A DNA stretch of 30,389 nucleotides from positions 1 through 30,389 of the IMG/VR virus record IMGVR_UViG_3300023115_001509, one strand, 5' to 3'. Positions 1,196 through 30,290 of this stretch are shown piece by piece; within the stretch, counting starts at the first letter, position 1, and every line of letters starts with the position of its first letter. Origin of the DNA: a virus. Below the pieces are notes generated by a model that did no database searches, was not told where the DNA came from, and was given only the letters and a program-made list of their open reading frames with translations. A program made the position numbers and the translations under genes.

Positions 1196-1231
1196 GTTCT
1201 AATTTTTATAAATAAATTAGAACCATAAATA
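1196..1231 (+). promoter_or_regulatory. Late promoter motifs embedded in a hairpin before the HNH gene
   Basis: A perfect 10-bp inverted repeat, GTTCTAATTT 1196-1205 and AAATTAGAAC 1214-1223, holds TATAAATA at 1207-1214 in its loop. A second late-type motif, CATAAATA, is at 1224-1231, just before ATG 1237. Transcripts from upstream would carry the whole hairpin; late transcripts would start downstream of its 5' arm. This resembles the way T4 restricts homing-endonuclease translation to late transcripts. Confidence 0.55.
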
Positions 1232-1236
1232 ACTTT

Positions 1237-1596
1237 ATGCCATATAAGGATAAAGAAAAGCAAAGAGAAGCACAACGACTCTGGGCACAAAAACAAAGTT
1301 CTGAATTCAAAAAGGTAAAATACCAAAGAGAAAAGAACAATAAACAGTTGATGGTTGAAAAATTAAATCAACTTAAAATGGATCGTGGATGTTGTGATCT
1401 CTGTGGTGATTATCATCCTCCTTGTTGTTTTGATTTTCATCATATAGATAAATCAAGCAAAGAAAGAGAGGTTGCAACCTTAGCACATAAAGGATATAAG
1501 TGGGAGACAATCCAAGCAGAGATAGATAAGTGCTATATGCTCTGTGCTCCCTGCCATCGTAAAATACACGCTGGTTTATTGGAAATTATAGGGTGA
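1237..1596 (+). CDS. HNH endonuclease (free-standing homing-type)
   Basis: The 119-residue protein has a lysine-rich basic N-terminus (residues 1-45), then a compact HNH fold: Cys53-x2-Cys56, the paired His68-His69, and Cys103-x2-Cys106 with His107 and His111. The Cys pairs would bind structural zinc; the His residues and metal would cut DNA. Such enzymes in T4-like phages usually nick or cut near their own insertion site and spread by recombination. It sits between two tRNA genes, and its last codons overlap the start of tRNA-Ser by five bases. No intron splice sites are evident, so I call it free-standing. Start ATG 1237 lacks a strong ribosome site. Confidence 0.85.
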   Translation: MPYKDKEKQREAQRLWAQKQSSEFKKVKYQREKNNKQLMVEKLNQLKMDRGCCDLCGDYHPPCCFDFHHIDKSSKEREVATLAHKGYKWETIQAEIDKCYMLCAPCHRKIHAGLLEIIG

Positions 1597-16419: not shown

Positions 16420-16445
16420 AGGGGGCTTGACGCCCTCTTTATTTT
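16420..16445 (+). terminator. Terminator of the glycan operon
   Basis: Stem GGGC 16423-16426 with GCCC 16432-16435, extended by G-T and G-C pairs, has the five-base loop TTGAC and a T-rich tail (TCTTTATTTTT). The loop itself is the -35 box of the next promoter. Confidence 0.75.
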
Positions 16446-16456
16446 TGCTATATAAT
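16427..16456 (+). promoter_or_regulatory. Promoter of photosynthesis cassette A, -35 in terminator loop
   Basis: TTGACG 16427-16432 and TATAAT 16451-16456 are 18 bases apart. The TTGAC is the loop of the preceding terminator. It lies 24 bases before the hli start and should drive the hli-ferredoxin-peroxiredoxin group. The second hli copy also has an 18-base spacer (26865-26894). Confidence 0.75.
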
Positions 16457-16480
16457 GTAACAGTTCTTAATAAAACGCAA

Positions 16481-16699
16481 ATGACTGTAACAACTAACGA
16501 GCATGGTCAACAGAATATGTTTGCTGTTGAACCCGCAATGTATATGACTGATGAGGATCGTGCTAAGTATGGTCTGGAGTCTCACAATGAGCGTGCCGAA
16601 AAACTGAATGGTCGTGTTGCCATGCTTGGTTTTGCTGCTGCGGTCATTTCGTATGTAACCACTGGCAGTGTGTTCTTTTTCGGTGCCTTCGGCATTTGA
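16481..16699 (+). CDS. hli: High-light-inducible protein (Hli/Hlip), copy A
   Basis: A 72-residue single-helix member of the chlorophyll a/b-binding family. The signature A-E-K-L-N-G-R-x-A-M-x-G-F starts near residue 38 and is followed by the membrane helix. Hlips bind chlorophyll and carotenoid in the thylakoid, quench excess energy and protect photosystem II during assembly. Cyanophages carry many copies and express them early. The N-terminal 36 residues are phage-type and shared with copy B (TN-x-G-Q-x-NMFA pattern). It is first after a strong promoter. Confidence 0.95.
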   Translation: MTVTTNEHGQQNMFAVEPAMYMTDEDRAKYGLESHNERAEKLNGRVAMLGFAAAVISYVTTGSVFFFGAFGI

Positions 16700-16701
16700 C
16701 A

Positions 16702-16788
16702 ATGGTACAGATTTGCTTTACAATCACTAGTATCGCCTTCTTCGTTTTGTTGGCGTATTCCGTAGAACAACTAGCAGAAACTTATTAA
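16702..16788 (+). CDS. 28-residue membrane peptide, copy A
   Basis: One hydrophobic helix (residues 3-18) with a conserved ending SVEQLAETY. Its homologue at 27129 shares TS-x-AFFVLL-x-YSVE and the last residues and is also just downstream of an hli. Conservation between cassettes with several amino-acid changes argues that it is a real gene. It could be a small photosystem or cytochrome-complex subunit, or an Hli partner; no match can be claimed. Confidence 0.65.
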
Positions 16789-16792
16789 AAAA

Positions 16793-17086
16793 ATGTCTTA
16801 TAACATTACTCTCCGCTCTCCTGACGGTACTGAAAACACCATCACCTGTGATTCTGATCAATATATTCTTGATGCCGCTGAAGAGCAGGGTGTTGATATG
16901 AACTACTCCTGTCGTGCTGGTGCTTGTTCTTCTTGTGCTGGTAAGATTGTTTCCGGTACTGTTGATCAAGGTGACCAATCTTTCCTGGATGATGATCAAA
17001 TTGATGCAGGATTTGTTTTGACCTGTGTCGCTTATCCTACTAGTGATTGTGTGATTGAAACCGATCAAGAGGAAAATCTTTACTGA
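16793..17086 (+). CDS. petF: Plant-type [2Fe-2S] ferredoxin
   Basis: A 97-residue soluble electron carrier with the cluster ligands Cys40, Cys45, Cys48 and Cys78 (C-x4-C-x2-C...C). It accepts electrons from photosystem I and passes them to FNR, ribonucleotide or bilin reductases, or other acceptors. Length and acidity are standard. It has a TGATG overlap with the thioredoxin-like gene. It is present only in cassette A, between the 28-residue peptide gene and the 50-residue protein gene. Confidence 0.95.
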
Positions 17087-17379
17087 TGGCAAAGTTCTAT
17101 CTTTTCTCAAAAGAATCCTGCGGTCCTTGTCGTTTAGTTGACAAGTACATTAATGCTCTTGGAGACGAAAGAACCAATATTATTGAAAAGATTGATCTTG
17201 AAGATGTGAGTGATACACCTATTCCTCAAAAAAATCTTGACCTTGCCAAAACATATGGTGTGACAGCTACACCAGTTCTTATCGTTACTGATGAAACTGG
17301 TTTGAAAGTCGCAGAGTATGTTGGTGGGGTTCCTATTACAAAAAATATTAAAGAAACATTTGATAAGTATTATGACTAA
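17086..17379 (+). CDS. Thioredoxin/glutaredoxin-fold protein with CGPC
   Basis: A 97-residue thioredoxin-fold protein with active site Cys12-Gly-Pro-Cys15 close to the N-terminus and a TATP cis-proline near 60-63. CGPC is thioredoxin-like, while the short length before it recalls phage NrdC-type proteins. It may reduce the peroxiredoxin encoded next (8-base overlap) or ribonucleotide reductase. Electrons could come via thioredoxin reductase; direct use of the upstream ferredoxin is speculative. Confidence 0.85.
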   Translation: MAKFYLFSKESCGPCRLVDKYINALGDERTNIIEKIDLEDVSDTPIPQKNLDLAKTYGVTATPVLIVTDETGLKVAEYVGGVPITKNIKETFDKYYD

Positions 17380-17878
17380 ACGAGTTCCCGAAGTAACTTT
17401 CAAGACCCGTATTGATGGTGACTGGGCAGATCTCACCACTGCTGACATTTTTACTGGAAAGCGTGTGGTTGTATTCTCTCTGCCTGGTGCATTCACTCCC
17501 ACTTGCTCCTCATTCCAACTTCCTGGTTATGAAGCATTCTATGATATGATTCGTGAACAAGGTGTTGATGAAATCTATTGTATTTCTGTCAATGATTCTT
17601 TTGTTATGAATGCTTGGTTCAAGGATCAACAAATTGAAAAAGTAAAAGCAATCCCTGATGGGAGTGGTGAATTTACTCACGCTATGGGTATGTCTGTCAA
17701 TAAGGCAAACCTAGGTTTCGGTTTCCGTTCCTGGCGTTATGCTATGGTAGTGAATGATGGTGAGATTGAAATGCTGTTTGAGGAACCTGGCAAGGTGGGT
17801 AACTGCCCTGTCGATCCTTATGAAGTGAGTGATCCTGAAACAGTACTTAACTATCTCAAAACTAATGTCGAATCCTAA
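17372..17878 (+). CDS. Peroxiredoxin (Prx5 type)
   Basis: A 168-residue thiol peroxidase that removes H2O2 and alkyl peroxides. The active-site segment is P39-x2-x-T42-x2-C45 (PGAFTPTC) with Cys45 the peroxidatic residue. The length and the VFSLPGAFTPTCS pattern match the Prx5/AhpE-type family. Start ATG 17372 overlaps the thioredoxin-like gene, its probable reductant. Located with photosynthesis genes, it likely limits oxidative damage when electron transport is kept running in the infected cell. Confidence 0.92.
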   Translation: MTKRVPEVTFKTRIDGDWADLTTADIFTGKRVVVFSLPGAFTPTCSSFQLPGYEAFYDMIREQGVDEIYCISVNDSFVMNAWFKDQQIEKVKAIPDGSGEFTHAMGMSVNKANLGFGFRSWRYAMVVNDGEIEMLFEEPGKVGNCPVDPYEVSDPETVLNYLKTNVES

Positions 17879-18017
17879 TCAACTCTACGAGGACATGGAA
17901 AAACTCAATGCTCTCTATGAAGAGTTGTGTTGGGACCATAGTGATGAACTAGTCTTCACCCACGACGGTGAAGAGATTATTATTTACAACAAAACAAAAC
18001 AGGAGAACGAACAATGA
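17865..18017 (+). CDS. Small soluble conserved protein (cassette A), 50 residues
   Basis: An acidic protein with the core MEKLNALYEELCW and ELVFTHDGEEII...YNKTKQE, shared almost unchanged with the protein at 27499. The ATG overlaps the peroxiredoxin end. In cassette A it precedes the mini-hli; in cassette B it follows the acidic-tail peptide. Function unknown, but strong paralogue conservation shows that it is expressed protein. Confidence 0.75.
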   Translation: MSNPNQLYEDMEKLNALYEELCWDHSDELVFTHDGEEIIIYNKTKQENEQ

Positions 18018-18121
18018 ACGAACGCGCAGAACGTATTAATGGTTGGGCAGCAATGATTGGTGTCATTGCCGCAATGGGATCTTATGCCGCCACAGGTCAA
18101 CTGATTCCTGGTATTTGGTGA
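18014..18121 (+). CDS. hli: Mini high-light-inducible protein, 35 residues, copy A
   Basis: The whole protein is the Hli core: E-R-A-E-R-I-N-G-W-A-A-M-I-G then a helix ending TGQLIPGIW, without an N-terminal extension. Near-identical to 27235-27342. It has the chlorophyll-binding Glu and Asn; Arg after NG is replaced by Trp. The ribosome site AGGAGA precedes it. The stop overlaps the next ATG (TGATG). Confidence 0.88.
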   Translation: MNERAERINGWAAMIGVIAAMGSYAATGQLIPGIW

Positions 18122-18246
18122 TGTTGTTATTTGCTACTTGCCTCTTAGGTGCCTTTATTATTGGATCCCTACTTGGTGATGCAGATGCAGATGATGACGA
18201 TGATCAGGGTGGTGGGATGTTGATTCCCGCTTATAACCCTATCTAA
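18121..18246 (+). CDS. Membrane peptide with poly-Asp tail, copy A
   Basis: A 41-residue product with one N-terminal membrane helix (residues 1-18), then a highly acidic run (DADADDDDD) and a GGGM-x-x-P-x-YN end. The homologue at 27342 keeps the helix, the Asp run and the end but differs in detail. It is translationally coupled to the mini-Hli in both cassettes, suggesting that the two work together. Family unknown. Confidence 0.7.
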   Translation: MLLFATCLLGAFIIGSLLGDADADDDDDQGGGMLIPAYNPI

Positions 18247-18257
18247 ATATTTCAAGG

Positions 18258-18284
18258 AAGTCAGAAGAGATTCTGACTTTTTTT
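18258..18284 (+). terminator. Intrinsic terminator before halogenase A
   Basis: A 9-bp stem AAGTCAGAA 18258-18266 / TTCTGACTT 18271-18279 with a GAGA loop and seven T residues (18278-18284). The halogenase ATG is only 12 bases farther, with no promoter between. Either read-through or attenuation must supply that gene. Confidence 0.8.
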
Positions 18285-18296
18285 GTGCCTAATTTT

Positions 18297-19565
18297 ATGA
18301 AAGTAGCTGTAGTCGGAAGTGGAACAGGCGGATTAGTTTCCGCGATGGTCATGTGCTCAAGGTCTCCTGTGGATTTGGAGGTCGATTTAATACATGACCC
18401 AAATTCTCCCATCATTGGTGTGGGGGAGAGTCTTTCGCATGACTTTGTTCAGTTACTAAGAGGATCTCTACAGTTCCAATTTCCTTTTGATATGAAGGAA
18501 ATAAATGCCACAACCAAACATGGTGTTGCCCTTGTGGATTGGTGTGAGACTCAGAACTTTCCTGAGAGTCTCAATGGATATCTTTCTCTTTCCTGCCAAG
18601 GAGTTCACGCTGACACATATTCGTGGAGACCATTTGTACTTCCTAGACTCAAACATTATTGGGGACACAAGTTCAAGGAAGTCCATGGTGTAGTTAAAAA
18701 TATCTGGCAGGATTCTTCTGGTGCTTACGTATCTCTTGGGGATGAAGTTCTCAAATACAACTACGTTATAGATTGTAGAGGTATACCACAGGAATTTGAT
18801 GATACATATGAGAGCCCAGAATCGATTGTAATCAATTCTGTTATCATAAACGTCTGTGATAAACCAGGCGATTGGGAATGGACCTATCACATCGCTCATC
18901 CAAATGGATGGATGTTTGGTATCCCAGTTAGTAATAGGAGCAGTTGGGGATATCTATACAACAATAAGGTCACCACTGAAGAGGAAGCGATAAAAGACTC
19001 GCATAGATTCTTGCGGGAACATAGAATTCCCAGAGCCCACATCGATTATGATAAGTTGAGGGACAATGTAAAATCATTTTCTTGGCCTCATTATCACTCT
19101 AAAAAATTTGTTGATGGAAAAATTTTAAGGAATGGAAATGCACTCTATACATATGAACCTCTTCATGGATATGGAGTTCCTTTGTATACAACTCTTGCTA
19201 CCATGGCCATAGATTATTTTAATTATGATCTAGAAGAAGATGAGTTAAATGGTCAGTATCAAAAGTATTTGCATTCATTCCGAGACTTTATTGCTTTCCA
19301 TTATCACAGAGGAAGTATTCACAAGACTCCTTTCTGGGAATGGGCTTCTGAAGTATCTATGAACCAAGTCCAAGGATCTGAGTTCATGAAGATCTGTATG
19401 TCTAAGGACTTTACTTTAGAGGGAGCGGTACAGATGGATGACACTTGGACTACATCACCCATTGCTCATCCAATGTTTATCTGGGAACTCGATGCTGTGT
19501 TTGACTTTGGATACTTCAAACACATGCCTGGACTTGCACATAAGTGTACCCAATGTGTTCTATAA
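18297..19565 (+). CDS. Flavin-dependent tryptophan-halogenase-like protein, copy A
   Basis: A 422-residue protein of the PrnA/tryptophan halogenase family (PF04820), which uses FADH2, O2 and halide. Seen: the FAD motif GSGTGG at 7-12, GVGES 41-45, and Lys74 in NATTKHG at the place of the catalytic lysine of PrnA. The family WxWxIP signature appears as W205-M-F-G-I-P210, so the second Trp is Phe. The C-terminus ends with a CTQC pair. Start ATG 18297 is preferred to a GTG four codons earlier. Substrate unknown. Paralogue at 27719. Halogenase-like genes are known in cyanophages but their product is not established. Confidence 0.82.
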   Translation: MKVAVVGSGTGGLVSAMVMCSRSPVDLEVDLIHDPNSPIIGVGESLSHDFVQLLRGSLQFQFPFDMKEINATTKHGVALVDWCETQNFPESLNGYLSLSCQGVHADTYSWRPFVLPRLKHYWGHKFKEVHGVVKNIWQDSSGAYVSLGDEVLKYNYVIDCRGIPQEFDDTYESPESIVINSVIINVCDKPGDWEWTYHIAHPNGWMFGIPVSNRSSWGYLYNNKVTTEEEAIKDSHRFLREHRIPRAHIDYDKLRDNVKSFSWPHYHSKKFVDGKILRNGNALYTYEPLHGYGVPLYTTLATMAIDYFNYDLEEDELNGQYQKYLHSFRDFIAFHYHRGSIHKTPFWEWASEVSMNQVQGSEFMKICMSKDFTLEGAVQMDDTWTTSPIAHPMFIWELDAVFDFGYFKHMPGLAHKCTQCVL

Positions 19566-19592
19566 GGAACTTAAATCCCCAAAACCCAAGGC

Positions 19593-19621
19593 TTGACACC
19601 AAAATAGGTTCGGGTTATACT
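19593..19621 (+). promoter_or_regulatory. Sigma-70 promoter of psbA copy A
   Basis: TTGACA 19593-19598 and TATACT 19616-19621 with a 17-base spacer. Start point expected near 19628, giving a leader of about 180 bases. It aligns with the promoter of psbA copy B. Confidence 0.82.
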
Positions 19622-19636
19622 AAATAAGTCAACGGG

Positions 19637-19784
19637 TTAAGGAATGTAACGTTTCTTATACCAGTCGTAACACTTGTGGAAACGGGTCTAACCACCTTAC
19701 CGAGGCTACGCAAGTAAAATACGCCTCTTATATCTCTGTCTGAGGGTGACAGAGAAATAAGTACCTCCACCATTTCCCTGATGG
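19637..19784 (+). ncRNA. Structured psbA leader RNA, copy A (PhotoRC-like)
   Basis: Four elements in order. Hairpin 1: TAAGGAA/TTTCTTA around 19638-19658. Stem 2: ACTTGTG 19672-19678 with CGCAAGT 19709-19715, whose loop ends in GAGGC (19702-19706), able to pair with GCCTC 19723-19727 (pseudoknot). Stem 3: TCTCTGTC 19733-19740 with GACAGAGA 19748-19755, loop TGAGGGT, whose GAGG can pair with CCTC 19764-19767. Hairpin 4: CCAT/ATGG 19770-19784. The stems differ in sequence from copy B but keep pairing. PhotoRC motifs are known in psbA leaders of cyanobacteria and cyanophages; assignment to that family is from memory. Confidence 0.75.
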
Positions 19785-19806
19785 ACTTACTTACTTTTTC
19801 AAAACA

Positions 19807-20886
19807 ATGACTGCTACTCTTTCACGTCAAAAACAATCGAATACTTGGGAACAATTCTGCAACTGGGTCACCAGCACTGACAATCGTCTGTATGTTGGTT
19901 GGTTCGGAGTCCTCATGATTCCTTGCCTTCTCGCTGCTACTACTTGTTTCATCATCGCCTTCATCGGTGCTCCCCCTGTGGACATCGACGGCATCCGCGA
20001 ACCCGTTGCTGGTTCTCTCATGTATGGTAACAACATCATCTCTGGTGCTGTTATTCCTTCTTCTAATGCAATTGGTCTCCACTTCTATCCCATCTGGGAA
20101 GCAGCCTCTCTGGATGAGTGGCTCTACAATGGTGGTCCTTTCCAACTCGTAGTCTTCCACTTCCTCATCGGCATCTATGCATACATGGGCCGTGAGTGGG
20201 AACTTTCCTACCGTCTTGGTATGCGTCCTTGGATCTGTGTTGCTTACTCTGCACCTGTCGCAGCAGCATCCGCAGTCTTCCTGGTTTATCCTTTCGGTCA
20301 AGGTTCTTTCTCTGATGCAATGCCCCTGGGCATTAGTGGTACTTTCAACTACATGCTTGTCTTCCAGGCAGAACACAACATCCTGATGCACCCCTTCCAC
20401 ATGCTGGGCGTCGCTGGTGTCTTCGGTGGTTCTCTGTTCAGTGCAATGCACGGTTCTCTGGTTACCTCTTCGCTGGTTCGTGAGACCACCGAAAATGAGT
20501 CCCAGAACTATGGTTACAAGTTTGGTCAAGAAGAAGAGACCTATAACATTGTTGCCGCACACGGTTACTTCGGTCGTTTGATCTTCCAATACGCTTCCTT
20601 CAACAACTCCCGTTCGCTGCACTTCTTCCTCGCAGCATGGCCTGTTGTCGGTATCTGGTTCACTGCACTGGGTGTTAGCACCATGGCATTCAACCTGAAC
20701 GGTTTCAACTTCAACCAGTCGGTCATCGACTCTCAAGGTCGTGTCCTGAACACCTGGGCTGATGTCCTCAACCGTGCAAACCTCGGTATGGAAGTAATGC
20801 ACGAGCGTAACGCTCACAACTTCCCTCTTGACCTTGCAGCTGCAGAGTCTACTCCTGTTGCACTCACCGCACCTGCTGTTGGTTGA
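19807..20886 (+). CDS. psbA: Photosystem II D1 protein, copy A
   Basis: The full 359-residue D1 reaction-centre protein with five membrane helices, binding P680, pheophytin, QB and the Mn4CaO5 cluster. Glu at 130 (GREWELSYR) marks the high-light D1:2-type isoform. The C-terminal tail after NFPLDLA is the processed extension. There is no intron. Phage D1 replaces the fast-turning host D1 during infection. It differs from copy B at about eight residues (for example Asn19/Glu, Asn/Thr in the ETTEx segment). Codons are rich in C-ending forms, as in highly expressed host genes. Confidence 0.98.
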
Positions 20887-26919: not shown

Positions 26920-27129
26920 ATGACCGTAACTAAAAATGAGTTTGGGCAAATGAATATGTTTGCCAAAGAACCTACGATGTACATGACCAAAGAGGCTATG
27001 GAGCGTTACGGTTATGAACCATACGCTGAGAAAGCCGAAAAAATGAATGGTCGTGCTGCAATGATTGGGTTCGTTTTCGCAGTCCTGTCTTACGCAACCA
27101 CAGGAAATCTTTTCTTTGGTCTGGTCTGA
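26920..27129 (+). CDS. hli: High-light-inducible protein, copy B
   Basis: A 69-residue Hlip with the chlorophyll-binding segment A-E-K-M-N-G-R-A-A-M-I-G-F and one membrane helix. The N-terminal extension aligns with copy A (TKNEFGQMNMFAKEP). It protects thylakoid chlorophyll-proteins from excess light. The stop overlaps the start of the 28-residue peptide (TGATG). Confidence 0.95.
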   Translation: MTVTKNEFGQMNMFAKEPTMYMTKEAMERYGYEPYAEKAEKMNGRAAMIGFVFAVLSYATTGNLFFGLV

Positions 27130-27215
27130 TGACTGAACTTCTTTTCACTGCAACCAGTGTAGCATTCTTTGTGCTACTTGGTTATTCTGTAGAAAAACTT
27201 TCTGAAACTTATTAA
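27129..27215 (+). CDS. 28-residue membrane peptide, copy B
   Basis: Homologue of 16702-16788: hydrophobic helix with TSVAFFVLLGYSVEKLSETY. The same length and C-terminus with scattered substitutions indicate selection at protein level. Translationally coupled to hli copy B. Function unknown. Confidence 0.7.
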   Translation: MTELLFTATSVAFFVLLGYSVEKLSETY

Positions 27216-27234
27216 GTAAACTAGGAGAAAACAA

Positions 27235-27342
27235 ATGAACGAAAGAGCAGAACGTATTAATGGTTGGGCAGCAATGCTCGGTATCATGGCAGCAATGGGA
27301 TCCTATGCCGTGACTGGTCAACTGATTCCTGGAGTATGGTGA
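27235..27342 (+). CDS. hli: Mini high-light-inducible protein, copy B
   Basis: 35 residues, nearly identical to 18014-18121, consisting only of the Hli helix with its E-R-I-N-G-W-A-A-M motif. AGGAG ribosome site at 27223-27227. The stop overlaps the next ATG. It probably pairs with another Hlip or a photosystem protein to bind pigment. Confidence 0.88.
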   Translation: MNERAERINGWAAMLGIMAAMGSYAVTGQLIPGVW

Positions 27343-27467
27343 TGTTACTCCTAGCAGTTATGATGCTGGGGGCCTGGATATTAATCTCCACTGCTGGTAA
27401 CAGTGATATTGATGATGACGATGACTTTGATGGTGGAATGATGCAACCAGTTTACAATCATCAATAA
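27342..27467 (+). CDS. Membrane peptide with poly-Asp tail, copy B
   Basis: 41 residues, one membrane helix (1-18), a DIDDDDDFDGG acidic run and an ending MQPVYNHQ. Aligns end to end with 18121-18246. Coupled to the mini-hli by TGATG in both cassettes. Function unknown. Confidence 0.7.
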   Translation: MLLLAVMMLGAWILISTAGNSDIDDDDDFDGGMMQPVYNHQ

Positions 27468-27498
27468 ATAATGTACAATAGAAATTTGATATTTTGTT

Positions 27499-27663
27499 AT
27501 GACCAACGAGAACGCTTTGTGGGAAGACATGAGAAAACTCAATGCTCTCTATGAAGAACTTTGTTGGGGGCATGACGATGAATTAGTTTTCACACATGAT
27601 GGTGAAGAGATCATCGTCTATAACAAAACAAAACAAGAAGCTCAAAACAAATCCGAGCTTTGA
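27499..27663 (+). CDS. Small soluble conserved protein (cassette B), 54 residues
   Basis: Homologue of 17865-18017 (KLNALYEELCW, ELVFTHDGEEII). Here it is a separate gene 31 bases after the acidic-tail peptide and just before the halogenase terminator, a different place from cassette A. Its longer C-terminus ends in NKSEL. Confidence 0.75.
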   Translation: MTNENALWEDMRKLNALYEELCWGHDDELVFTHDGEEIIVYNKTKQEAQNKSEL

Positions 27664-27670
27664 TTCCTAA

Positions 27671-27702
27671 AATGGTCGGAAAAAATTTCCGGCCATTTTT
27701 TT
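27671..27702 (+). terminator. Intrinsic terminator before halogenase B
   Basis: A 12-bp stem, AATGGTCGGAAA 27671-27682 with TTTCCGGCCATT 27686-27697 (one T-G pair), a three-A loop and a run of T. It occupies the same position as 18258-18284 but is unrelated in sequence. Confidence 0.85.
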
Positions 27703-27718
27703 GTTGGCCAGGTTCACT

Positions 27719-28984
27719 ATGAGAATTGCTGTCATTGGTGGGGGAACTGGAGGACTAGTCACTGCAATGGTGATGTGTTCCAGATCTCCAGAGAATTTAA
27801 AAGTAGATCTCATCCATGATCCCAACTCACCTATTATTGGTGTGGGAGAAACACTAGCGCATGATTTTGTTCAACTTTTAAGGGGAGCATTACAGTTTCA
27901 GTTTCCCTTTGATATGGAACAAATCAATGCAAGGACAAAATATGGACTCGCTCTGGTAGATTGGAGAGAGTCGCATGATTTTCCTGCGAGTCTTAATGGA
28001 TATCTTTCTAATTCATGTCAGGGCATACATGCTGACACTTATGCATGGAGAGGTTTTGTTTTACCTAGACTGAAACATTACTGGGGACATAAGTTTAAAG
28101 AAGTTCATGGTACTGTAGATAGGTTTTGGCAGGACTCTAGAAGGGCATACCTCTCTATGGATGGAGAGACGCACGAATATCATTATATTATTGACTGTAG
28201 AGGTATTCCGACTGAACTGGATGATACTTTTGATCAACCAGAGTCCATTACAGTCAATTCTGTTATTATTAATGTATGCGATAAACCTGGAGATTGGGAT
28301 TGGACATATCACATTGCTCATCCTAACGGTTGGATGTTTGGTATTCCAGTAAGTTACAGGAGCACTTGGGGATATCTCTATAACAATAAGATCACTACAA
28401 AAGAAGAGGCCATTGAGGACTCACATAGATTCCTTAGAGAACATAGGATTCCTAGACAACATATTGATTACGATAAACTTAGAGATAACGTAAAGTCTTT
28501 TAGTTGGCCTCATTATCACTCGAAGAAGTTTGCTGATAGAAGAATTCTGAGAAATGGAAATGCTCTCTATACATATGAACCTCTTCATGGATATGGAGTT
28601 CCTCTCTATACAACTCTTGCCACTTTAGCGATTGATTATTTTACATATGATATGTCAGAGAATGAATTGAATGATCAGTACACTGCATATCTAAGTTCAT
28701 TCCGAGATCTTATCGCTTTCCATTATCACAAGGGTAGTATTCATGATACTTCTTTCTGGAGGTGGGCATCAGAAGTCTCCTCAAAACAAATCGAAAATTC
28801 CGAATGGATGAGAATATGCCTTGCAGATAACTTTACTCTGGAAGGTGCTGTTCAGATGGATGACACTTGGACCACCGCACCCATTGCCCATCCAATGTTT
28901 ATCTGGGAACTTGATAGGGTTATGAACTTTGGATACTTTGAACATCTCCCAGAACTCGCTCATGTATGTCCTACCTGTAAGTAG
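27719..28984 (+). CDS. Flavin-dependent tryptophan-halogenase-like protein, copy B
   Basis: 421 residues, closely similar to 18297-19565 along its whole length. The FAD motif GGGTGG at 7-12, GVGET 41-45, Lys74 (NARTKYG) and the W-M-F-G-I-P variant of the halogenase signature are all kept; the C-terminus ends in a CPTC pair. ATG 27719 is preferred over an in-frame start at 27701 within the terminator tail. Retention of the same unusual features in both copies suggests a shared, non-standard substrate. It precedes the psbA promoter by 20 bases. Confidence 0.82.
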   Translation: MRIAVIGGGTGGLVTAMVMCSRSPENLKVDLIHDPNSPIIGVGETLAHDFVQLLRGALQFQFPFDMEQINARTKYGLALVDWRESHDFPASLNGYLSNSCQGIHADTYAWRGFVLPRLKHYWGHKFKEVHGTVDRFWQDSRRAYLSMDGETHEYHYIIDCRGIPTELDDTFDQPESITVNSVIINVCDKPGDWDWTYHIAHPNGWMFGIPVSYRSTWGYLYNNKITTKEEAIEDSHRFLREHRIPRQHIDYDKLRDNVKSFSWPHYHSKKFADRRILRNGNALYTYEPLHGYGVPLYTTLATLAIDYFTYDMSENELNDQYTAYLSSFRDLIAFHYHKGSIHDTSFWRWASEVSSKQIENSEWMRICLADNFTLEGAVQMDDTWTTAPIAHPMFIWELDRVMNFGYFEHLPELAHVCPTCK

Positions 28985-29004
28985 AAATACTCAAATTTTC
29001 CCCC

Positions 29005-29033
29005 TTGACAGGAAAACCGTACCGTGTTAATAT
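29005..29033 (+). promoter_or_regulatory. Promoter of psbA copy B, with late motif at its -10
   Basis: TTGACA 29005-29010 and TAATAT 29028-29033 are 17 bases apart, aligned with the copy A promoter. The same place also reads TATAAATA (29031-29038), the T4-type late core, which copy A lacks (ACTAAATA). Early and late use are both possible. Confidence 0.75.
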
Positions 29034-29048
29034 AAATACATCAACAAG

Positions 29049-29186
29049 TTAAGGAATGTAAAGTTCCTTAAAAAAGTTGTTACATCCCTGCCGCTTGACG
29101 GAGGCTAGGCAGGGTTACCAATCCGCCTCTCATATCCCAGTCTGAGGGTGACTGGGAAATAAGTACCTCCACCATTTCCCTGATGG
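29049..29186 (+). ncRNA. Structured psbA leader RNA, copy B (PhotoRC-like)
   Basis: Hairpin 1: TTAAGGAA 29049-29056 with TTCCTTAA 29064-29071. Stem 2: CCCTGCC 29086-29092 with GGCAGGG 29108-29114, loop ending in GAGGC (29101-29105) that can pair with GCCTC 29125-29129. Stem 3: TCCCAGTC 29135-29142 with GACTGGGA 29150-29157, loop TGAGGGT, GAGG able to pair with CCTC 29166-29169. Hairpin 4: CCAT/ATGG 29172-29186. The loops are conserved and the stems covary relative to copy A. Confidence 0.77.
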
Positions 29187-29210
29187 ATCTACTTACTTTT
29201 TTTCAAAACA

Positions 29211-30290
29211 ATGACTGCTACACTTTCACGTCAAAAACAATCGAATACTTGGGAACAGTTCTGCGAGTGGGTCACCAGCACCGACAACCGCCTCTATGTG
29301 GGTTGGTTCGGCGTTCTGATGATTCCCTGCCTGCTGGCTGCTACGACTTGTTTCATTATCGCCTTCATCGGTGCTCCCCCTGTGGACATCGACGGCATCC
29401 GCGAACCAGTTGCTGGTTCTCTCATGTATGGTAATAACATCATCTCTGGTGCTGTTATCCCTTCTTCTAACGCCATTGGTCTTCACTTCTACCCCATCTG
29501 GGAAGCTGCTTCCCTTGATGAATGGCTTTACAACGGTGGTCCTTTCCAACTCGTTGTCTTCCACTTCCTGATCGGCATCTATGCCTATATGGGTCGTGAG
29601 TGGGAACTTTCTTACCGTCTTGGTATGCGTCCTTGGATCTGCGTTGCATACTCTGCTCCTGTCGCTGCAGCGAGTGCAGTGTTCCTGGTCTATCCTTTCG
29701 GTCAAGGTTCTTTCTCTGATGCGATGCCCCTGGGTATCAGTGGTACTTTCAACTACATGCTTGTCTTCCAGGCAGAACACAACATCCTGATGCACCCCTT
29801 CCACATGCTGGGTGTCGCTGGTGTCTTCGGTGGTTCTCTGTTCAGTGCTATGCACGGTTCTCTGGTTACCTCTTCGCTGGTTCGTGAAACCACCGAAACT
29901 GAGTCCCAGAACTATGGATACAAGTTCGGTCAAGAAGAAGAGACCTATAACATTGTTGCTGCACACGGTTACTTTGGTCGTCTGATCTTCCAGTATGCTT
30001 CTTTCAATAATAGCCGTTCTCTTCACTTCTTCCTTGCTGCTTGGCCAGTGGTCGGTATCTGGTTTACTGCTCTTGGTGTTAGCACTATGGCATTTAACCT
30101 GAATGGTTTCAACTTCAACCAGTCTATCGTTGATAGTCAGGGCAAAGTGATCAACACTTGGGCTGACGTTCTCAACCGTGCTGGTCTGGGTATGGAAGTG
30201 ATGCACGAGAGGAACGCACACAATTTCCCTCTGGATCTTGCTGCTGCTGAGTCCACTCCTGTTGCACTCACCGCACCTGCAATCGGTTGA
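29211..30290 (+). CDS. psbA: Photosystem II D1 protein, copy B
   Basis: Full-length D1 of 359 residues without intron, with Glu130 as in copy A. About eight substitutions separate the two (for example Glu19, Thr in ETTETES, Ile-Val swap and Gly in NRAGLGMEV near the C-terminus). The DNA differs far more in the last third than in the middle, a mosaic pattern. It is processed after the NFPLDLA segment like other D1 proteins and inserts in the thylakoid membrane. The downstream 39-base element and a terminator end the unit. Confidence 0.98.

Follow-up and report, generated by a model that had tools for sequence, protein, structure and literature searches.

A putative late promoter inside a predicted hairpin precedes a free-standing HNH endonuclease gene in a T4-like cyanophage

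Does a marine phage hold back a mobile HNH endonuclease gene by means of a late promoter placed inside an RNA hairpin, as T4 does for some of its homing genes? The question arises from the window, an IMG/VR virus record of 30,389 bases. Its source type is a T4-like cyanophage (marine), an assignment based on two psbA-type genes, a psbD-type gene, a dehydrogenase adjoining the locus and matches to Synechococcus phages.

The leader, its setting and the proposed switch

The free-standing HNH endonuclease ORF (1237–1596, + strand, 119 aa) matches PHROG 3106 (E 5e-24); a Pfam scan of the protein gave no match at E 0.01. The protein is under purifying selection, with dN of 0.12 and dS of 0.74–0.96 relative to its counterparts in L018 and L021. 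The HNH stop codon lies within a tRNA-Ser(UGA) gene (1592–1678, + strand), and most close orthologs likewise have a tRNA-Ser bordering the HNH gene at its 3' end. On the 5' side of the leader is a co-directional PHROG 8074 gene with no assigned function (936–1193, + strand), a possible source of read-through RNA. No terminator-like site was called on the + strand from 936 to 1237, and an Rfam scan identified only tRNAs above the gathering score.

The first-pass annotation described a perfect 10-bp palindrome with a late box in its loop, and we confirm this arrangement. The 5' arm (GTTCTAATTT, 1196–1205, + strand) is perfectly complementary to the 3' arm (AAATTAGAAC, 1214–1223, + strand), which ends 13–14 nt 5' of the ATG at 1237. 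The predicted 8-nt loop (TTATAAAT, 1206–1213, + strand) holds most of a T4-type late promoter box, TATAAATA (1207–1214, + strand), whose last A (1214) opens the 3' arm. The box matches the NATAAATA/TATAAATA motif (PMC2984593) and is kept in late-promoter orthologs. A second late-type box had been placed just after the hairpin; it exists as a sequence match (CATAAATA, 1224–1231, + strand) and may be regarded as a candidate element, but it is absent from this place in many orthologs and conserved in part of the family only. Further downstream, a small predicted hairpin (CUUUAU-G-CC/GG-AUAAAG, 1233–1255, + strand) pairs two of the AUG bases in both the long and the late RNA; it rests on bases that differ in other orthologs included in the leader comparison.

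A 10-bp inverted repeat alone is not unique here, as the window contains five with arms of at least 10 bp (loop 3–14), against 0.47 expected per dinucleotide shuffle. However, only the leader hairpin, among all stems of 8 bp or more in the window, has ATAAATA inside, and no such stem was found in 30 window shuffles. When the local 110 nt were shuffled 20,000 times, stems of at least 10 bp with a loop of at most 10 arose in 55 cases, and the predicted fold of the 75-nt leader (-14.5 kcal/mol, z = -4.8) was matched in stability by 0 of 200 shuffles. The count of TATAAATA in the window (3, with 1.8 expected) is weakly above chance; we read it as a late box not from this count, but from the unequal strand distribution of ATAAATA in related genomes (49 vs 6, 51 vs 6 and 61 vs 12) and from NATAAATA, the published cyanophage late motif (PMC2984593).

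Another TATAAATA occurs 5' of the second psbA gene (29031–29038), overlapped by a sigma-70-type TTGACA-17-TAATAT and followed by a small inverted repeat; this region (29005–29071) looks like a combined early and late promoter. In addition, one gene block is present twice (16427–20886 and 26920–30290), each time with a small ORF (MTVTTNEHGQQ or MTVTKNEFGQ), a short acidic ORF, an ORF of about 426 aa and psbA.

The 1191–1236 leader is probably a two-state switch that gates translation of a mobile HNH gene by promoter choice. Read-through RNA from upstream (tRNA-Val and the PHROG 8074 gene) would carry both arms and fold the 10-bp hairpin between -41 and -14 relative to the AUG, where an initiating ribosome needs room, and little HNH protein would be made. 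Once a late sigma factor (gp55-type) acts, polymerase would use the loop-borne TATAAATA. In the usual T4 late geometry, RNA starts six bases 3' of the final A in the box; applied to TATAAATA, which ends at 1214, this predicts a start at 1220. A late RNA beginning GAACCAUAAAUAACUUUAUG at about this position could not form the hairpin, as it would lack all of the 5' arm and most of the 3' arm, and its start region would be open. The second box, if used, would give a leaderless RNA from about 1237. The late start site, the read-through RNA, the effect on translation and the homing activity are features that we infer. The stem ends at 1223 and thus does not sequester a ribosome binding site (RBS) or the AUG by direct pairing. 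Given that it stops 14 nt 5' of the AUG, and that no Shine-Dalgarno sequence is evident before the HNH ATG, inhibition would be steric, within the ribosome footprint.

The contrast between the two RNAs can be expressed as an opening-energy gap, a threshold-free measure defined as the energy needed to open the stretch from about -18 to +6 at the AUG in the long RNA minus that in the late RNA. Computed values for the window are 11.0 (read-through) and 5.5 kcal/mol (late RNA). The first-pass annotation had proposed that read-through RNA folds the hairpin close to the start codon and that late RNA lacks the 5' arm; the position of the box between the arms, the predicted start at 1220 and these modelled energies all agree with that proposal. 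The resulting gap of 5.5 kcal/mol is modest, in part because the 1233–1255 hairpin over the AUG persists in both RNAs.

Conservation of the leader and promoter class

The match of the window to cyanophage DSL-LC02 starts at the first base of the leader, 1191, and the first 42 of 42 nt, including the 5' arm, are identical. The two are 79% identical over 1191–1571 by blastn, and the ORFs 74% identical by codon comparison. A leader better kept than the coding sequence, together with the retained fold in late-promoter orthologs, indicates that the palindrome did not arise by chance. The position in DSL-LC02 looks partly syntenic, as the preceding gene there ends in a similar peptide. In IMG/VR we identified 28 close relatives of the HNH protein (73–100% identity) plus more distant ones, and the exact 28-nt hairpin is present in four contigs.

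A comparison of this leader in related phages had been suggested with the original proposal, and it bears that proposal out: late-promoter orthologs keep the fold, with some compensatory changes. Base pairs were counted in an anchored register because MAFFT columns shifted the arms between loop lengths; in the anchored count, L038 fell out of register. In 12 distinct late-class leaders, 86.5% of compared positions pair, versus 80.5% after re-dealing of the arms (25 of 2000 shuffles reached the observed value). Extra pair types were as numerous in 4 of 2000 shuffles, and double changes (e.g., T-A to C-G) occur at seven positions. We consider the within-family covariation in these alignments fair but not overwhelming. 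It is weak (57 of 2000 as high) when all members of this family (family A), including the sigma-70 class, are counted. In a second family (D), pairing is above that of shuffles (19 of 2000 as high), but the number of double changes is not (777 of 2000).

In nine orthologs of this HNH family the promoter is of sigma-70 type (TTGACA or a near match, 17–18 nt, then TATAAT or TATAGT), with its -10 element at the place of the late box in the window. Thus, lateness is not universal in this family. The hairpin is shortened in most of these orthologs, and the median gap in opening energy between the long RNA and the leader's own RNA is 6.3 kcal/mol in 16 late-class leaders versus 1.6 kcal/mol in the sigma-70 class (p 0.0025); in L043 and L039 the gap is small or nil. 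If the hairpin silences pre-late RNA, it should matter for late genes only, and the contrast between classes, as read from sequence, fits the switch model. The protein tree suggests several changes of class, although these are weakly supported and poorly resolved. The sigma-70 orthologs already allow promoter classes to be compared in their need for a hairpin.

The surroundings of the gene may point to a mobile unit. In L027 and L037 the first 22–25 nt of tRNA-Ser lie just 5' of the leader (0 of 300 shuffles); insertion of the cassette into a tRNA-Ser gene would be expected to leave such relics. Upstream sequence matched the tRNA of its own locus no better than chance, and matches to tRNA-Ser of other loci were clear only for these two. 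In S-SKS1, homologs of the flanking genes are present without the HNH gene and tRNA-Ser. In L014 (IMGVR 3300000116_002723), 5' of 2501, the HNH cassette follows a truncated tRNA-Ser rather than the PHROG 8074 gene, with the junction at a shared GTTCG; this could be recombination or an assembly chimera.

Hairpin leaders before other HNH genes, and rival readings

Similar layouts precede unrelated HNH genes. In the S-WAM2 family the stem varies between members (TTATCGGTATAA/TTATACCGATAA, TTACTGG/CCAGTAA or TTTGG/CCAAA), and TTATCGG/CCGATAA is also recorded for this family; GTATAAATA is enclosed in every case. The S-RIM50 families have GGATGTAGT/ACTACATCC or GGTATGAT/ATCATACC. The stem of the MRDQ family (GATTAAC/GTTAATC) starts just 3' of the box, and the predicted late start falls inside its 5' arm.

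The enrichment was evaluated over all ATAAATA boxes, with HNH genes recognised by motif; a loose motif proved too unspecific for picking out such genes. Predicted starts spanned by a stem of at least 8 bp were found at 39 of 86 HNH boxes versus 10 of 260 others in IMG/VR loci, where many HNH entries are relatives of the queries (Fisher p ~1e-18), and at 5 of 8 versus 7 of 269 in a set made up of the window and six reference genomes (p ~3e-6), although these p-values overstate the case because members of one family are not independent samples. Inspection of the data led to one refinement of the stem metric; an earlier form required the 3' arm to lie wholly after the predicted start, which was unsuitable given that the 3' arm in the window itself straddles that position.

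Opening-energy gaps show the same contrast. Medians are 7.6 kcal/mol for 5 HNH genes versus 1.5 kcal/mol for 160 other late genes in the reference genomes, and 7.8 (72 HNH) versus 1.9 kcal/mol (119 others) in IMG/VR loci. Among HNH boxes outside the start motifs of the query families, 11 of 20 have a gap above 7 kcal/mol, some of them in distant relatives of the queries; of the other late genes, 13 of 160 (about 8%) reach at least 7 kcal/mol. The largest gap in the reference genomes, 15.5 kcal/mol, belongs to a - strand late box of S-RSM4 (FM207411, loci L112–L121) near 96885, which lies within a 9-bp hairpin (ATCCTATAAATAACATTATAGGAT) that precedes a 63-aa non-HNH ORF.

Not all HNH genes share this arrangement. 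In P-SSM2 and S-B43, HNH genes have late boxes without such hairpins, and some HNH genes carry a late box alone or a terminator. F-CphI of S-PM2 is a characterised cyanophage homing enzyme (PMC6083498), and its leader has a terminator followed by a late box in place of the hairpin. In this F-CphI leader (L302, ~16610–16685) the terminator hairpin GGAACTCTTCGGAGTTCC-T7 is followed directly by TATAAATA, to all appearances another arrangement that separates read-through from the gene's own late promoter. Thus, the hairpin would be one of several ways to insulate such genes. Across T4-like marine phages, promoter-in-hairpin leaders may be generally used to time unrelated free-standing HNH homing genes, as a device that has arisen or been exchanged repeatedly and in which the hairpin decays upon a switch to sigma-70; we give this wider proposal an even chance.

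The palindrome might instead be a DNA operator, bound by the HNH protein or another factor to block the promoter in the manner of I-TevI autorepression, with the RNA fold incidental. I-TevI does bind an operator overlapping its own late promoter (PMC2988022), and GGTTC...GAACC is retained in the distant relatives L041, L042, L044 and L060 despite changed inner arms. In three sigma-70-class leaders (L023, L024 and L031) the left arm, AAGGTTC(T/A)AATC, also resembles the T-arm of the adjacent tRNA-Ser (AAGGTTCGAATC; 0 to 2 of 200 shuffles as good). However, most late-class members lack this likeness or show it only at chance level, and the idea of a T-arm operator is unsupported in most of the family. 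The palindrome decays where the promoter is of sigma-70 type, and arms that are unrelated across families nevertheless keep the same relation to the predicted start. We therefore consider an operator unlikely.

Less probable still is a hairpin that protects or processes the mRNA (as a 5' stabiliser or nuclease site), or contributes to insulating the inserted gene, but does not gate translation. Its position at the upstream edge of the cassette in differing contexts (L014, L027, L028, L037 and L041) suits such a role. A late RNA that lacks the hairpin, however, could not be stabilised by it, and the leader has neither a U-tract nor a + strand terminator call; with two G-C pairs and no + strand T run after the stem, the hairpin does not resemble an intrinsic terminator. 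That box and palindrome are merely neighbours in AT-rich DNA, as the five 10-bp palindromes in the window and the weak excess of TATAAATA might suggest, is hard to credit in view of the conservation, compensatory changes, recurrence across unrelated families and enrichment.

Comparison with known control systems

Gating of HNH translation by promoter choice is the reading that we prefer, and the T4-like logic of hairpin and late promoter originally proposed for this leader gains support from conservation of the fold, coupling of late box and hairpin, and enrichment before several HNH families. Control by hairpin and promoter has been described for T4 I-TevI, I-TevII, I-TevIII and segB and for Aeh1 mobE (PMC2988022, PMC3014915). 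Free-standing enzymes under hairpin/late-promoter control are thus already known, namely T4 segB and Aeh1 mobE (PMC2988022). What appears to be new here is a cyanophage form of this T4-known control, before HNH genes. In the literature searched, largely limited to openly accessible papers, we found no description of a late promoter embedded in a hairpin ahead of an HNH gene in a cyanophage. These leaders suggest that T4-like phages commonly, and not only T4, need to delay their homing endonucleases, and their recognisable signature may help in finding and timing mobile genes in uncultured phages.

The T4 controls I-TevI, segB and lysozyme e show the same layout when folded in this analysis. 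I-TevI, in the T4 td intron, has a late box (ATAAATA) within an inhibitory hairpin, and its late RNA lacks part of the structure (PMC2988022); unlike the window gene, it is intron-encoded and GIY-YIG, and its stem pairs with the RBS and AUG region. T4 segB is free-standing, lies in a tRNA gene cluster and has a late box in a hairpin before the gene, but it is a GIY-YIG gene of a phage of Escherichia coli and its hairpin pairs with the start region. For T4 lysozyme gene e, the long RNA forms a hairpin with late boxes in its 5' part, and the late RNA is translated (PMC3014915); this is a lysis gene, however, and no mobile endonuclease. In our folds the stems of I-TevI, segB and e reach the start region, whereas that of the window stops 14 nt 5' of it. 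The mobE gene of Aeromonas phage Aeh1 is likewise free-standing and of HNH type, and an RNA hairpin is reported to limit its translation (PMC2988022, PMC3014915), although that hairpin sequesters the RBS. The seg43(25) gene of Aeromonas phage 25 encodes a segD-like (GIY-YIG) enzyme, but has a predicted hairpin immediately 5' and an unpaired RBS, as in the window (PMC2988022). Because its stem pairs with neither the RBS nor the AUG, the cyanophage leader may be said to work like T4 control without being a strict member of that class, and seg43(25) is a published exception of the same kind.
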